The position numbers and the translations under genes were made by a program. Shown here one piece after another: positions 57,317 through 64,000 of a stretch of 64,000 nucleotides of DNA. Origin of the DNA: Cohnella sp. OV330 (lineage in GTDB: Bacteria; Bacillota; Bacilli; Paenibacillales; Paenibacillaceae); NCBI RefSeq assembly GCF_900112065.1, contig NZ_FOKE01000001.1, positions 574,828 to 638,827 of the forward strand, in the 5' to 3' direction. The notes below the pieces were generated by a model that was not told the origin of the DNA, did not search any database, and worked only from the letters and a program-made list of their open reading frames with translations. Position 1 is the first letter of the stretch, and every line of letters starts with the position of its first letter.

Positions 57317-58240
57317 CTAGTACTTGACCGCCTGGAACGTGTTGAAGCCGTAACTCGTCGGCTCCGTCAGCCGGCGGTAAATCTCCTGGTAGCGCGCCGT
57401 AGTCGCATTCACCACATCGTCCGGGAGGCGCGGCGGCGTGCTGTCGCGATCCCAATCCGTGCTGAGCAGGTACGTGCGTACCGGCTCCTTGTCCATGCTG
57501 TCAATCTCGATGTCGAGCTCGTACTTCTCTTCGGCCCAGAAGCGCGAGGAATCCGGCGTGAACAACTCGTCGATCAGGATGATCTCGTCGCCCAGCAGAC
57601 CGAACTCGAACTTGCAGTCCGCCAGGATGATGCTCTTGTGCTCGCATACCGCGAGCGCGTAATCGTATAGCAGGAGGCTGCGCTTGCGAAGGCCGGCGGC
57701 CAGCTCCGAGCCGATGCGGCGCTCCATCTCCTCGAAGGAGATGTCCTCGTCGTGGCCGACGTCGTTTTTGCCCGCAGGGGTAAAGATCGGCTCCTCCAGC
57801 TTGGCGTTCTTGCGCAGGCCGGCGGGGAGCGGAATGCCGTTGACCTCGCCGTTCTTCTGGTACTGCCGCCAGCCGCCGCCCGTGATGTAGCCGCGCACGA
57901 CGCACTCGATGTCGATCCGCTTCGCCTTTTTCGTGACCATGATCCGCCCGGCCAGCTTGTCGGGTTCGGAGACGAGGTCGCCCAGCTTGCGGACGTCCGT
58001 ATGGACGACGTGATTGGGAACGAGATCCTTCGTCTTGTCGAACCAGAAGGCGCTAAGGCCGTTCAGCACCTTGCCCTTCTCGGGAACGGCGGGGTCGAGC
58101 ACGTAGTCGAACGCCGAGATCCGGTCGGTCACGACGATGAGCAGATGCTCGCCGAGATCGTAGAGCTCCCTGACCTTGCCCTTGTGGATGAGCGGCGCCT
58201 TGACGAGCCCTTCCGCGGTAGATAACGCTTCTGTAGACAT
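57317..58240 (-). CDS. purC: SAICAR synthase
   Basis: 307 residues from the ATG at 58240 after GGAGG. Motifs: KGKVRELYDLGEHLLIVVTDRISAFDYVL, ECVVRGYITGGGWRQYQ and DELFTPDSSRFWA. It is of the longer (~300 residue) SAICAR synthase type, not the ~240-residue B. subtilis type. Step 7 of the pathway. Followed by a 436-bp repeat-bearing gap before purS. Confidence 0.97.
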   Translation of the reverse strand: MSTEALSTAEGLVKAPLIHKGKVRELYDLGEHLLIVVTDRISAFDYVLDPAVPEKGKVLNGLSAFWFDKTKDLVPNHVVHTDVRKLGDLVSEPDKLAGRIMVTKKAKRIDIECVVRGYITGGGWRQYQKNGEVNGIPLPAGLRKNAKLEEPIFTPAGKNDVGHDEDISFEEMERRIGSELAAGLRKRSLLLYDYALAVCEHKSIILADCKFEFGLLGDEIILIDELFTPDSSRFWAEEKYELDIEIDSMDKEPVRTYLLSTDWDRDSTPPRLPDDVVNATTARYQEIYRRLTEPTSYGFNTFQAVKY

Positions 58241-58273
58241 GTCAGCCTCCTGCATTCTTTATATAAGAAGAGA

Positions 58274-59569
58274 TTATTCCAGACCGAGCCGCTTGAAAAT
58301 CGTCTCGACGTGCTTCAGGTGCCACGAAGGGTTGAACGCGTCCGCGATCTCTTCGGCGCTCAGGGCGTCGGTGATCTCTTTCGTCTCGGAGACGATGGAC
58401 TGGAAGTCGCGCTGCTCTTCCCAGGCTTGCATCGCGCGCGGCTGAACCGTATCGTACGCCTGCTCGCGGGAGAAGCCTTTGTCGATCAGCTTCGTCATGA
58501 TGCGGCCGGAGAACGGCACGTTGTAGGTGCTGCGCATGTTGCGCTTCATGTTCTCGGGGAAAACCTGCAGGTTTTTCACGATGTTGCCGAAGCGGTTCAG
58601 CATGTAGTTCAGCAGCATCGTCGCGTCCGGCAGAATGATGCGTTCGACGGAGGAGTGAGAGATATCGCGCTCGTGCCACAGCGCCACGTTTTCGTAGGCG
58701 GTGATCATGTGGCCGCGGATGACGCGGGAGAGGCCGCTGATGTTCTCGCAGCCGATCGGATTGCGCTTGTGCGGCATCGCCGACGAGCCCTTCTGGCCCT
58801 TGGCGAACGGCTCTTCGACTTCGCGGAACTCGCTCTTCTGCAGCGCGCGGATCTCGGTCGCGAACTTGTCGAGCGAAGAGCCGATGAGCGCCAGCGTCGC
58901 CATGTACTCGGCGTGGCGGTCGCGCTGCAGCGTCTGCGTGGAGATCGGCGCCGCGCTGATGCCGAGCTTGTCGCACACGTACTGCTCGACGAACGGGTCG
59001 AGGTTGGCGTAGGTGCCGACCGCGCCGGACATTTTGCCGTACTGGACTTCGTCCGCGGCTCTGCGGAAGCGCTCGAGGTTGCGCTTCATCTCTTCGTGCC
59101 ACAGCGCGAGCTTCAGGCCGAACGTCGTCGGCTCCGCGTGCACGCCGTGCGTGCGACCCATCATCGGGGTCGACTTATATTGAATCGCCTGGTCGCGAAG
59201 GATGGCGATGAAGTTCACGAGGTCGCGCTCGAGAATCTCGTTGGCTTGCTTCAGCACGTAGCCGAGGGCGGTGTCGACGACATCCGTCGACGTCATGCCG
59301 TAGTGCACCCACTTGCGCTCCTCGCCGAGGCTCTCGGATACGGCGCGCGTGAACGCGATGACGTCGTGGCGGGTCTCCTGCTCGATCTCGTAGATCCGGT
59401 CGATGTCGAACTTGGCGTTCTCGCGCAGCAGCACGGTGTCCGCCTTCGGGATATGGCCGAGCTCCGCCCAAGCCTCGCAAGCGCACAGCTCGACTTCGAG
59501 CCATGCTTTGAATTTGTTTTCTTCGGTCCAGATAGCCCGCATCTCGGGGCGGCTGTAGCGTTCGATCAT
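58274..59569 (-). CDS. purB: Adenylosuccinate lyase
   Basis: 431 residues. Fumarase/aspartase superfamily; signature [22 protein letters not shown], and [16 protein letters not shown]. Acts twice in purine synthesis (SAICAR and adenylosuccinate). Next to purC and purK. Confidence 0.98.
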
Positions 59570-59575
59570 GATGGA

Positions 59576-60865
59576 TTAGACCCTCCAAATGGTTGATTCG
59601 TCGATCCATGCGAGCGCGGCTTCGGTATCCGCGGCCAGCACGTTGACATGGCCCATCTTGCGCCCGGTCTTGGCTTCGGCCTTGCCGTACAGGTGAATCT
59701 TCATCGCGACGCCGAGCCTGTCGGCCTCCGGATCGCGCGACTGCATCCAGTCCAACAGCGGCTCGACATGCTCGCCTAGGATATTGCCCATCACGACGGG
59801 CGACAATAGCGAGGTGTCGCCGAGCGGGAGGTCGCAGATCGCGCGGATATGCTGCTCGAACTGGGACGTGCGGCACGCCTCCATCGTATAGTGCCCGGAA
59901 TTGTGCGGCCGCGGCGCCAGCTCGTTGACGAACAGCGTGCCGTCCTTGGCGACGAACATCTCGACCGCGATCAAGCCGACGGCGCCGAGCGTCTCCGCGA
60001 TCGACACCGCGAGGCGCTCCGCCTCGGCGATGACGGCGTCCGGCACCCGCGCGGGCACGATGGACAAATGCAATATATTGCGAACGTGAATATTCTCGGC
60101 AGGGGGGAACGTTCGGATCTCTCCCGACGGCCTGCGCGCGGCGATGACCGAGATCTCCCGCTCGAAGTCGATGAACTTCTCGAGCACGAGCTCGGTGCCG
60201 GCGCGGCTCGCCTCGTCCCAGGCGAGAGCCAGCGCGTCCGTCCCGCGCAGCACCCATTGGCCCTTGCCGTCGTAGCCGCCGGTCGCCGTCTTCAGCACGG
60301 CGGGCAAGCCCAGGCGCTCGGCCGCCTCCTGCAGGTCGGCGAAGCTGGCGATCTCGGCGTAAGGCGCGACCCGCGCGCCCGCCGCCTCGATGGCGCGCTT
60401 CTCGCGCAGCCGATGCTGCGTCGTATGCAGCAGGGCGCTGCCCTGCGGCACGTACGATTCGGCCTCCAGCATCGCCGCGACGTCCGCGTCCACGTTCTCG
60501 AACTCATACGTGATGACGTCGCTGCGGCGCGCCAGCTCGCGCGCCGCGTCGCGGTCGGCGTAGCCGGCCACGATCTGCTCGGCCGTCTGGCCGCAAGGCG
60601 CGTCCGGCGTCGGATCGAGCGCCACGAATCGGTAGCCCATCCGGCTGCCCGCGTGCGCCAGCATCCGTCCCAGCTGCCCGCCGCCCAGGACGCCGATCGT
60701 GGCGCCCGGCAAGATCGGACGAGCCGGCTTCGCGCCGACTACGGCCGCCTGGCCGCCCTGCGCCGCTCCGTTCTGCAGGCCGCCGACCGGCCCGCAGCCG
60801 TCGACGCCGCATGCCTCGCCTTCGCCGCCCAGCAGTCCTTCAAGCTCGCGATTCAGCCCGCTCAT
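59576..60865 (-). CDS. purK: N5-carboxyaminoimidazole ribonucleotide synthase
   Basis: 429 residues, about 50 longer than usual at the N-terminus. The ATP-grasp fold begins at [19 protein letters not shown] (~56); before it is a Gly/Ala-rich stretch ([15 protein letters not shown]). The ATG at 60865 overlaps purE by 4 bp (ATGA), which supports this start. Other motifs: [27 protein letters not shown]. Step 6a with PurE. Confidence 0.96.
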
Positions 60866-61347
60866 GGCAGCACCGCGTTGTCCAGCACGTCCTGCGTGAT
60901 CCGCTCGCGCCGCGCGGCGACGCGCGCCTGCACGTCCGCGTCGAACGCGCCGACGATCTGCGCCGCCAGCAGGCCGGCGTTCGTGGCGCCGGCCGCGCCG
61001 ATCGCGACCGTCGCGACCGGGATGCCCCCCGGCATCTGGACGATCGACAACAACGAGTCCAGCCCGTTCAGGGCGGCGGACTTCACGGGCACGCCGATGA
61101 CGGGCAGGACGGTCTTCGCGGCGACCATGCCGGGCAGATGCGCCGCGCCGCCGGCGCCGGCCACGATGACCTTGAGCCCGCGCTGCGCCGCGGATTCCGC
61201 GTATTCGAACATGAGATCCGGCGTACGATGCGCCGATACGACTTTTTTCTCATAGGGGACGTTCAGTTCGTCCAGCACCTCGCACGCCTTCTTCATCGTC
61301 TCCCAATCGGACGTGCTGCCCATGATGACCCCGACGATTGCCGACAT
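60862..61347 (-). CDS. purE: N5-CAIR mutase
   Basis: 161 residues. Class I Pur[33 protein letters not shown] and [33 protein letters not shown]. First gene of the pur operon, ATG after AAAGGGTGG, overlapping purK by 4 bp. Its ~370-nt leader has the guanine riboswitch. Confidence 0.98.
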
Positions 61348-61800: not shown

Positions 61801-62084
61801 TAGCCCTGCAATTCCGAGGGTGAAGGTTAGATTAAGAAATTTTCAGTAAATTTAAGATTATGAAGGTTAAACAAAAGCAGCGACTCCGAAGAGAACGCTT
61901 CACGGCCGTGTCGAAGGGCGGGAGCAGCGGCGGTCGGAGCCCCGAAAATAAACAATGCTCGCGTCCACTTCTATGACACGCCTCATCCGTGCCGGCGATT
62001 GAGCATCGTCGCTACTCGGTATGCCCTGCTCCGGTATGGCCTGCTGCGGCAAGTCACGGCAGCGCGAGCCAGACATTGCGCCCC
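61801..62084. other. Non-coding region right of pur promoter
   Basis: About 280 bp. AT-rich on the left (61,801-61,880), GC-rich later. No gene, terminator or clear promoter was seen. Confidence 0.4.
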
Positions 62085-62250
62085 CGCTATCGCCGCGTTC
62101 ATGCACAGAATATGTGCATCTTGGCTCTACACGGGCAATTCGCCGGCGCCATCGCGGCGTTCATGCACAGAATATGTGCATCTTGGCGTTGGCCGGGCGT
62201 TGTGCTGACGCCATCACCGTGTACATGCACAGAATATGTGCATCCTGGCA
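62085..62250. repeat. Array of three ATGCACA stem-loops
   Basis: ATGCACAgaataTGTGCAT starts at 62101, 62163 and 62224 (steps 62 and 61), each followed by CTTGGC or CCTGGC and preceded by a CATCRCNGYGT-like stretch. Perfect 7-bp arms with a 5-base loop in all three copies. Confidence 0.85.
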
Positions 62251-62299
62251 TCGTCGCCCGCGATCCTTACTCGCTGCCGCTTGACCGGCACATCGCCCC

Positions 62300-62510
62300 T
62301 TCTCGCTGCCGCTCAGTAGAATGTGTAGACGCAGGTCAACACTTCTCCTCTACTCGCTCCCGCTCGGAACAATGTATTGACCTACGTCAACACTTCGCCT
62401 CTACTCGCTCCCGCTCGGCACAATGTATTGACCTACATCAACACTTCGCCTCTTCTCGCTCCCGCTCGGCACAATGTATTGACGTAGGTCAACACTTCAC
62501 CCCGCTCGCG
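62300..62510. repeat. Tandem array, four 51-bp units with TTGAC stem-loop
   Basis: AATGTATTGAC (first copy AATGTGTAGAC) begins at 62320, 62371, 62422 and 62473, exactly 51 bp apart. TTGAC / GTCAA arms around CTAC, CTAC, CTAC-like or GTAG loops, then ACACTT and CTCGCTCCCGCTCGG. Same design and length as the 34.4-kb array. Confidence 0.9.
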
Positions 62511-62781
62511 TCCGCTCAGCAGTTGCCCATGCCCCATGCACGCCAGCAGTCAAATGAGTCCTACCACGAGCAGGGCCAGCGCCTGCTCCCGCAGGCTCCG
62601 CGCAACTCGCCGCTCCGAAGCCCCGCTCCGGAGGCCGTTGCCCGACAACATCGCGTTAACTCCGCCCCCGGACCATACAAAAATGGAGCGAAGCACGCCG
62701 CTCCACCCCAAAAACCATTCCTATAACGTCGACGTCCGACTTGCCGTATTCACGCTTGGCAACCGGTTCTACCTGCCGCCT
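62511..62781. other. Non-coding gap left of GNAT-like gene
   Basis: About 270 bp, GC-rich, without a gene, ribosome site or hairpin followed by T-run. Confidence 0.4.
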
Positions 62782-62813
62782 TAAAGAAAAAGACGCCTCA
62801 GGCCTGGGGCGCC
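62782..62813 (-). terminator. Terminator of GNAT/peptide operon
   Basis: GGCGCCCC / GAGGCGTC stem around AGGCCT (62792-62813), then TTTTTCTTT on the minus strand. The stop codon of the GNAT-like gene lies inside the hairpin. Confidence 0.75.
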
Positions 62814-63406
62814 ATTTGCTTCTTCTCGTGGGGCGTTATGATGGCCTCGGGCAGCGCCCCTCTTCGCGCCAATCGCGACGCGAGACCGCCTATCCAGGCG
62901 TCCAGCTCGCTTAGCGGCGCCTTGTACAGCGCCAGCCCCTCGACGACGGTCCGCGCCGCGCCGGGTAGCCGCGCGATCCGCGCGAACAGCCGCTCGTTCG
63001 GATCATGATCGGCGACGGTCCAGAACTGTACGTACGCGGCGTCCGGATTGCCCTCGCGAATCGAATCGACGAGCGCCCTGGCAGCGGCGAGGAACACGAC
63101 CGGCGATCTGCTGTCCGGTTCGATGAAGACGGTCTCGATCTGGCAGTTCTCCCGGTCTTCGTACTCGCCGGGCCCGGTGCCGTAGACAAAGCCGAATGCG
63201 CCGATCTTCTCGTAGGAATCCTCGCCATGGATGAGCGTAGCCCTGCCGAGCGCAAGCGGACTTGCAAGGAAACTTAGCTTGATCGCGAAGGGATACGGCA
63301 TATTGAGCGCATCGTGGCGCGATATGAGATAACGAAGGTAGGAGGCATGGTCCATATCGAGCTCGCAGTTCCGAAATATCAAGCTCTCGCCCGCGCTTAG
63401 CGTCAT
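62798..63406 (-). CDS. GNAT-like acetyltransferase-family protein (putative)
   Basis: 202 residues from the ATG at 63406 (MTLSAGESLIFRNCELDM), after GGAGGTGG; the frame extends 13 residues further without support. The fold pattern looks GNAT-like: an N-terminal helix pair, KIGAFGFVYGTG as a strand-turn, CQIETVFIEPDSRSPVVFLAAARALVDSIRE as acceptor/acyl-CoA strand and helix, then AYVQFWTVADHDPNERLFARIARLPG. The CoA motif is not classical, so the call is tentative. It lies 77 bp after the small peptide gene on the same strand. Confidence 0.6.
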   Translation of the reverse strand: MTLSAGESLIFRNCELDMDHASYLRYLISRHDALNMPYPFAIKLSFLASPLALGRATLIHGEDSYEKIGAFGFVYGTGPGEYEDRENCQIETVFIEPDSRSPVVFLAAARALVDSIREGNPDAAYVQFWTVADHDPNERLFARIARLPGAARTVVEGLALYKAPLSELDAWIGGLASRLARRGALPEAIITPHEKKQMAPQA

Positions 63407-63483: not shown

Positions 63484-63585
63484 TTACTTTTGAAGCTGGG
63501 CGCGGAGTTTATCGTTAACCAGGATGATTTTTCCGAAGCCGCTGCCTTTAACGACTTCCTTGATATCAGGCTTAGCAGGATACAT
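63484..63585 (-). CDS. Small peptide gene (33 residues), possible modified-peptide precursor
   Basis: 33 residues, too short for usual gene finders. ATG at 63585 follows AAGGAGG with 7-base spacing, one of the best ribosome sites of the window. The N-terminal part is MYPAKPDIKEVVK, then a GSGFG turn, then a hydrophobic/charged part ending LRAQLQK. Six lysines and no cysteine. It sits 44 bp after a GNAT gene and 77 bp before a GNAT-like gene, all on one strand with one terminator after them. A precursor acylated by a GNAT enzyme is a possible reading; a regulatory or structural peptide is also possible. No known family recognised. Confidence 0.7.
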   Translation of the reverse strand: MYPAKPDIKEVVKGSGFGKIILVNDKLRAQLQK

Positions 63586-63629
63586 ACGACGACCTCCTTC
63601 GACAAATATTGGGTGATTGCCCAACACAA

Positions 63630-64000
63630 CTATACACGATTCCACTTTTCCAGAACAGACCTAATCTTGCCCACCGAGCCGGCGTATATCGTCTCCGGTC
63701 CCCATTCGCCGTCGCGGACGCCGCATGGCTCTACGAACTTCGCGTACAGCCTGTTCAAGTAGCGGTTATCGCTCTGCGCCGCCAGCCGGATCTCCCGCAC
63801 GCCCGGATGGCGCTCCGCGATCGTATGGACCATAAAGGCAAGTCCTTCGGAAAAAAGACGGCTTCCGCGGTATTCCCGGTCGGAGAGCGCGAGATCGATC
63901 AAGGCGACGTTTTTGTCGGCGAAGCCGTCGTCCCGCGTGCCGTGGAAGAAGACGCCGATGCCGACGGGGTGCCCGTCTTTTTTCGCCAGCACGAGATGAC
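63630..64000 (-). CDS. GNAT-family acetyltransferase (partial, 5' end beyond window)
   Basis: The last ~123 residues are visible; the frame continues past the window end (HLVLAKKDGHPVGIGVFFHG). GNAT features: VALIDLALSDREYRGSRLFSEGLAFMVHTIAERHPGVREIRLAAQSDNRYLNRLYAKF, with the acetyl-CoA loop region REYRGSRLF and the late NxxLNRLYAKF helix. It transfers an acyl group to an amine. The peptide gene follows directly, so peptide acylation is a possible role. Confidence 0.85.
   Translation of the reverse strand, partial: HLVLAKKDGHPVGIGVFFHGTRDDGFADKNVALIDLALSDREYRGSRLFSEGLAFMVHTIAERHPGVREIRLAAQSDNRYLNRLYAKFVEPCGVRDGEWGPETIYAGSVGKIRSVLEKWNRV

Follow-up and report, generated by a model that had tools for sequence, protein, structure and literature searches.

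Near the right edge of the window, by which we mean the whole 64,000-nucleotide stretch that was analysed (G000:C22:574828-638827), four genes follow one another on the minus strand in the order ABC exporter, GNAT-A, a 33-residue peptide gene and GNAT-B, with gaps of 6, 44 and 77 nt. Positions beyond the window are given in the coordinates of the 18 kb around the peptide locus (L003), in which a window position equals the L003 position plus 60,000. The features are:

62684..62710, minus strand: terminator-like hairpin 3' of GNAT-B, 12 pairs followed by TTTTT (consensus scan only)
62794..62811, no strand given: weak hairpin over the end of GNAT-B, a CGCC/GGCG stem followed by a mismatch (the terminator of the earlier note)
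62798..63406, minus strand: GNAT-B gene, 202 aa, paralogue of GNAT-A by profile (open reading frame; own GGAGG; GNAT fold in the model)
63484..63585, minus strand: gene for the 33-aa peptide, stop codon included, a candidate precursor or substrate (open reading frame; homologues; codon test)
63593..63599, minus strand: ribosome-binding site AAGGAGG of the peptide gene (sequence; 7 nt ahead of the ATG)
63630..64000, minus strand: 3' part of the GNAT-A gene (PF00583; model)
L003:4152-6371, outside the window, minus strand: MsbA-like ABC exporter gene (PF00664, PF00005, PF00027)

The peptide gene, read from 63585 to 63484, encodes MYPAKPDIKEVVKGSGFGKIILVNDKLRAQLQK (33 aa). Its AAGGAGG site and its position between two same-strand GNAT genes, across small gaps, are as the earlier note had described them from the letters alone. 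The same note had expected the cluster to continue to the right, and it does: the full GNAT-A gene (171 aa, L003:3630-4145, to 64145) runs 145 bases past the window edge, and just beyond lies the predicted exporter, with 6 bp between GNAT-A and the exporter start in the window's genome and with a cyclic-nucleotide-binding (cNMP-binding) domain at its C-terminus. The search to the right that had been proposed for an exporter or protease thus yielded the former; among the 16 neighbouring ORF products at the window locus no protease or RiPP synthetase was assigned, and the one Peptidase_C26 match there falls within GMP synthase. The shared terminator that had been placed at 62782-62813 did not stand, since its stem on the minus strand is weak and the scan lists it on the plus strand only; a better minus-strand site is at 62710-62684, in a scanned stretch with 8 terminator-like sites against 3.7 expected by the consensus scan. 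A promoter-like site matching the consensus at 10 of 12 positions precedes the exporter gene (2 such sites against 0.8 expected, consensus scan).

The operon is set among purine genes, with proteins of the purE, purK, adenylosuccinate lyase and SAICAR synthetase types to its left (window 57317-61347) and a purine permease, a DUF218 protein and guaA to its right (L003:6568-10750). This right flank is shared, wholly or partly, by loci L027 and L029-L032. Farther right, L003:11036-14959 encodes a large protein that combines RCC1-like repeats with an Ig-like domain and with S-layer homology (SLH) domains. Downstream of the operon, window 62289-62492 holds tandem direct repeats with 51-nt spacing, which form three overlapping 102-nt copies (the second 84% and the third 82% identical to the first), and at 62074-62259 a 62-nt unit occurs three times in tandem (second 82%, third 68% identical to the first).

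GNAT-A and GNAT-B match one another at the profile level (99.8%, hhalign) and are, on that comparison, paralogues. Structure models (pLDDT 93.3 for A and 91.5 for B) place both proteins in the GNAT fold, and GNAT-A also matches PF00583. The second gene had been called GNAT-like; its modelled fold agrees with this, although no Pfam family matches it above the cut-off. Homologues in Cohnella, Paenibacillus and Brevibacillus are mostly named "hypothetical protein" and in some cases "GNAT family N-acetyltransferase". Fold matches are many, tied and generic, so that function is not deducible from the fold. A tandem-GNAT structure (2wpx) appears among the matches listed for A, tied with ordinary GNATs and hence uninformative.

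In the CoA loop of GNAT-A, R93 and F98 are each found in 55/55 sequences and there is no Gly at position 96; in GNAT-B, R100 is kept in 57/57, Gly occurs at position 103 in 4/57, and position 105 is occupied by F (47), L (9) or M (1). As aligned, both loops are non-canonical and degenerate, keeping the first residue and lacking the small last one, and this missing residue makes the use of acyl-CoA uncertain in both proteins; a donor other than acetyl-CoA may be involved. Tyr134 of the LYxKF motif, which we take to be the usual general acid of GNATs, is present in 55/55 GNAT-A sequences, and the aligned place in the 57 GNAT-B sequences holds F (32), L (16), Y (2) or others. From these alignments we infer that A is the catalytic member of the pair and B an accessory partner. 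In one case, P0015, B and A are joined in that order in a single 352-aa frame (2 member sequences, one 2.2-kb contig, source "lgn"). The linker KEEIAVG looks as if the frame runs through the ribosome site and GTG start that belong to GNAT-A itself (compare L046), and the fusion, weak evidence in itself, may be due to an error or to a stop codon lost recently. No other natural B-A fusion emerged when P0015 was used as the query.

The peptide belongs to a family with the pattern M-[YFIV]-P...KGSGFG[KR]I...N[DE]xLR. Counting the window's own genome throughout, a single-sequence search recovered homologues in 15/37 genomes of the same genus and 28/394 of the same family, and a profile search recovered them in 47/392 genomes of the order, spanning 17/49 genera, and in 8/398 of the class, these eight including the window's own genome, the already-known G232 and a partial match in G632. 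Plasmid-borne relatives were not found, and the peptide matches neither Pfam (E<=10) nor NCBIfam. A set of 91 distinct peptides was gathered by profile or by position beside GNATs, with starts chosen partly by ribosome-site score, so agreement in motifs is partly built in; within it, [DE]xxR lies in the last 20 residues of 91/91 (shuffle mean 5.2), Pro at residues 3-5 in 89/91 (21.1), a hydrophobic residue at position 2 in 87/91 (26.1), and exact KGSGFG in 56/91. A purine-rich, SD-like site precedes the 30 listed copies, whose starts were chosen partly by SD score. The peptides are 30-44 aa long with a net charge of 2 to 7 (median 4). Conservation spans the whole peptide, with no division into leader and core. 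None of the 91 contains Cys and all carry Lys within residues 4-20, which makes amines the obvious handle for modification.

The codons indicate that what is conserved is the protein product. Among 21 hand-picked close pairs, dN/dS is below 0.5 in 18 of the 20 with a defined dS, the exceptions being L029-L031 (0.08/0.15) and L113-L117 (0.22/0.28). Between the window peptide and that of L019, dN is 0.10 with dS undefined through saturation, and the flanking GNATs differ at dN 0.45-0.48. On this codon comparison the peptide is under purifying selection, and the 33-residue frame looks like a real gene of a conserved family. Had the frame been unconserved or free to change, the earlier proposal would have failed; the relatives point the other way. 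They also bear on the view that the short frame is a translational leader or attenuator, or arose by chance, for which its small size and the abutment of its stop codon on GNAT-B in the main layout might speak. Against such a role stand the conservation at the amino-acid level, the use of both AGY and TCN codons for the Ser of KGSGFG, a dN lower than dS, the 10 loci in which the peptide lies downstream of both GNAT genes, and peptide copies with no GNATs nearby. We consider this reading extremely improbable, and on the codon test and the layouts a chance ORF or leader peptide was ruled out.

To view the family in its genomic setting, 68 loci were selected with the peptide as the sole criterion, 28 being places from the family search and 40 being stretches that cover every new row of the order search; same-strand GNAT genes were counted over no more than 6.5 kb, and over less where the stretch was shorter. 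Exactly two such genes are found in 59/68 loci, three (fragments) in 1, one in 4 and none in 4, and both GNAT-A and GNAT-B lie on the peptide strand in 60/68, in line with the prediction that homologues would sit next to GNAT genes. The layout A>peptide>B accounts for 48 loci, 37 of them with an exporter, and all 48 have the short peptide form (at most 36 aa, with [NYQ][DE]x[LK]R). The layouts B>A>peptide (10 loci) and peptide>B>A (1) have a long form in 11/11, most ending like ..NEQVRTSAA... The single A>B>peptide locus, L058, has an additional peptide between A and B. Median spacing is 44 nt from A to the peptide (n=59) and -1 from the peptide to the first in-frame start of B (n=49). Clustering of ORFs of at least 90 aa across the 68 loci gave no third conserved partner beyond GNAT and ABC proteins; the leftover clusters comprise a loose assortment, on both strands, of response-regulator-type and other proteins (22/68 loci), others in at most 10 loci, and one lying entirely on the opposite strand, which we read as probable antisense shadows. 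Frames that look split, whether by decay or by sequencing error, occur among the GNATs of L029 and in the exporters of L031 and L101.

An ABC exporter is present in 40/68 loci; the other 28 have none in the stretch read, and contig ends cut only some of these. The cNMP-binding domain (PF00027) was found in 9 of 10 exporters scanned, namely the window's and 8 of 9 further ones; the exception, that of L050, is 595 aa long, as is the exporter of L049.

These arrangements bear on two roles in which the peptide would not be matured by the enzymes beside it. It might be a bacteriocin or signal that is secreted unmodified, and the GNATs might give the producer immunity by acetylating the peptide within the cell. 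A GNAT is known to confer self-immunity to a peptide antibiotic in the case of MccE and microcin C, and the cationic charge of the peptides and the frequent exporter would suit such a scheme. Two GNATs in 60/68 loci nevertheless exceed what immunity would need, bacteriocins evolve fast whereas this family is conserved across genera, and the 28 loci with no exporter nearby fit poorly; we therefore judge immunity unlikely. A small gene adjoining GNAT genes could also recall a toxin-antitoxin module of the GNAT type, in which the peptide would serve as antitoxin. Known GNAT toxins, however, pair with DNA-binding antitoxins, whereas the peptide has no Pfam match; two GNATs with an exporter are a misfit, and neither GNAT matches PADLOC. 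This is a very improbable account. A defence system was likewise rejected, the GNATs having no PADLOC match and the exporter matching solely through its ATPase and cNMP domains.

Peptide and enzymes also track each other across whole genomes. GNAT-A adjoins the peptide in 15/15 peptide-positive genomes of the same genus (the GNAT frames of L029 look broken), and 18 of the 22 peptide-negative ones have no GNAT-A (E<=1e-10). Each of the remaining 4 has another short frame beside its GNAT pair: in G002 and G011 divergent peptides adjoin GNAT-B, that of G011 being weakly assigned by its place and [DE]xxR element (8 bits only), and in G018 and G024 a more distant GNAT pair accompanies another kind of peptide. 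Where the peptide has no GNATs nearby, GNAT-A is encoded elsewhere in 6 of 7 genomes searched, the exception being G632 with its partial peptide match; the 4 of 68 loci with no nearby GNATs likewise belong to genomes with GNAT-A elsewhere. Some genomes hold an extra peptide copy far from the GNAT pair. In G498 and G509, A and a peptide lie on one contig and a peptide and B on another (L103/L119 and L105/L126), and since the two contigs together carry A and B, each genome still holds both. This pattern agrees with enzymes that work jointly and reach a diffusible substrate in trans.

A related enzyme pair is associated with a second, unrelated peptide family. In the three loci checked for an exporter and second GNAT (L182, L183 and L189), the distant GNAT pair has both, and a short frame beginning MGAPACNPP or MGQSGCN lies on the opposite strand between the GNAT genes. 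The distant GNAT-A was found in 14/296 genomes of the order (E<=1e-15), two of them through distant relatives only. Among 14 full-length close loci (L190-L201, L204 and L205; the distant L202 and L203 and the fragments L206-L208 were excluded), 13 have a frame of the type MG[ADQ][PS][AG]x[NQ] on the opposite strand, about 100-125 bases away from the GNAT; in L198 no MG-type frame was found. The starts (MGAPACNPP.., MGDPGTQS.., MGQSGCN..) are unrelated to the M-[YFIV]-P...GSGFG family. Removal of Met would expose Gly2, which would make N-terminal acylation an attractive possibility for this second family.

The existence of two peptide families also weighs on a reading in which the product or substrate of the GNAT pair is a small molecule, such as a signal or lipid-like compound, that the exporter moves, with the peptide as a small accessory subunit or activator of the pair. 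Conservation over the full length of the peptide, as for a binding partner, its constancy beside the enzymes and the non-canonical CoA loops would all be at home in such a scheme. Substrates fit better than subunits, though, with the two peptide genes found in 5/68 loci (L047, L057, L058, L096 and L100), with the further distant copies, and with an unrelated family beside a related GNAT pair. We regard the small-molecule scheme as improbable.

The best explanation, which we hold to be probable with real room for doubt, is that the peptide is modified by the GNATs and then exported. A peptide of about 33 aa would be translated without a separate long leader, and its C-terminal [DE]xxR element would be the likely recognition site. 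A and B would cooperate like a split tandem GNAT, B helping to bind the peptide or the donor and A moving an acyl group onto a peptide amine. The acceptor would be either the N-terminal Met, in view of the M-[YFIV]-P conservation, or a lysine in the Lys-rich KGSGFGK segment. The product would leave through the MsbA-like exporter, perhaps tuned by its cNMP-binding domain. More tentatively, and with doubt slightly the stronger, the loci might represent an undescribed RiPP-like class, present in Paenibacillales and Brevibacillus, whose leaderless peptides of about 33 aa mature solely through acylation by a GNAT pair split over two genes, possibly at the N-terminal amine and from a non-CoA donor such as acyl-ACP; the enzyme class would then have taken on at least two peptide families unrelated to each other. 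In the open-licence literature, as far as its available portions go, no relevant description of the cluster or of the peptide motif strings was found, which does not prove absence; the compact system of peptide, GNAT pair and exporter is thus apparently undescribed. If the proposal is true, one tiny gene, two small enzymes and one exporter would provide a minimal route to ribosomal peptides that are lipidated or capped, and such a set would be easy to reconstruct and engineer. The system would also offer a natural split arrangement for asking why two domains are required in tandem GNATs, and what donor serves a GNAT with a degenerate CoA loop.

To our knowledge, the closest parallel to the A/B pair is NpuN. 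In the available excerpts of PMC13060382, selidamides are defined as ribosomal peptides with a side chain lipidated by a GNAT; NpuN-type GNATs acylate Lys or Orn side chains of lanthipeptides (selidamides, nostolysamides), and NpuN itself, whose acylation target in nostolysamides is Lys1, is a tandem GNAT of which one domain only has a clear P-loop and the CoA loop motif Q/R-x-x-G-x-G/A. The likeness to what these excerpts describe lies in a ribosomal peptide gene beside GNATs and in two GNAT domains, one tandem protein in NpuN and two genes here, P0015 being the only possible fusion; the difference is that neither A nor B has the Q/R-x-x-G-x-G/A loop. Known selidamides commonly have a long NHLP or Nif11 leader, which is not part of the definition and is absent from these 30-44-aa peptides (33 aa at the window locus). 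A lanthionine synthetase, common in known members and not always present in selidamide clusters according to the same excerpts (PMC13060382), is absent among the 16 neighbouring ORF products at the window locus, other loci having been screened for partners by clustering ORFs of at least 90 aa and not by family scan, and the lack of Cys in all 91 peptides is a further difference. The lipolanthine microvionin, the goadvionins and the lipoavitides, which those excerpts name (PMC13060382), are N-terminally acylated class III lanthipeptides; in these, too, a GNAT acylates an amine of a ribosomal peptide, and N-terminal acylation would fit the M-[YFIV]-P start, whereas here the peptides are free of Cys and those 16 products include no lanthipeptide synthetase. 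From the single-chain N-terminal acetyltransferases RimI, Ard1/NatA and Naa50 the system differs in its degenerate CoA loop, its paralogous partner gene and its dedicated peptide gene within the operon.

The earlier suggestion of a candidate acylated-peptide, RiPP-like cluster is thus upheld in the conserved linkage of peptide and GNATs, the selection and the exporter, and departs from known selidamides in the long leader, tandem GNAT and canonical CoA loop that are absent here. Since features of known members are missing and the defining chemistry lies beyond sequence data, assignment to the selidamides is not possible. One general RiPP feature is present, a precursor peptide that is encoded by a gene and kept next to candidate modifying enzymes (60/68 loci; selection), and the best reading of these sequences is that the A/B GNAT pair and its putatively exported peptide would form a leaderless, GNAT-only, RiPP-like class, one that by analogy may work like a selidamide system in principle.
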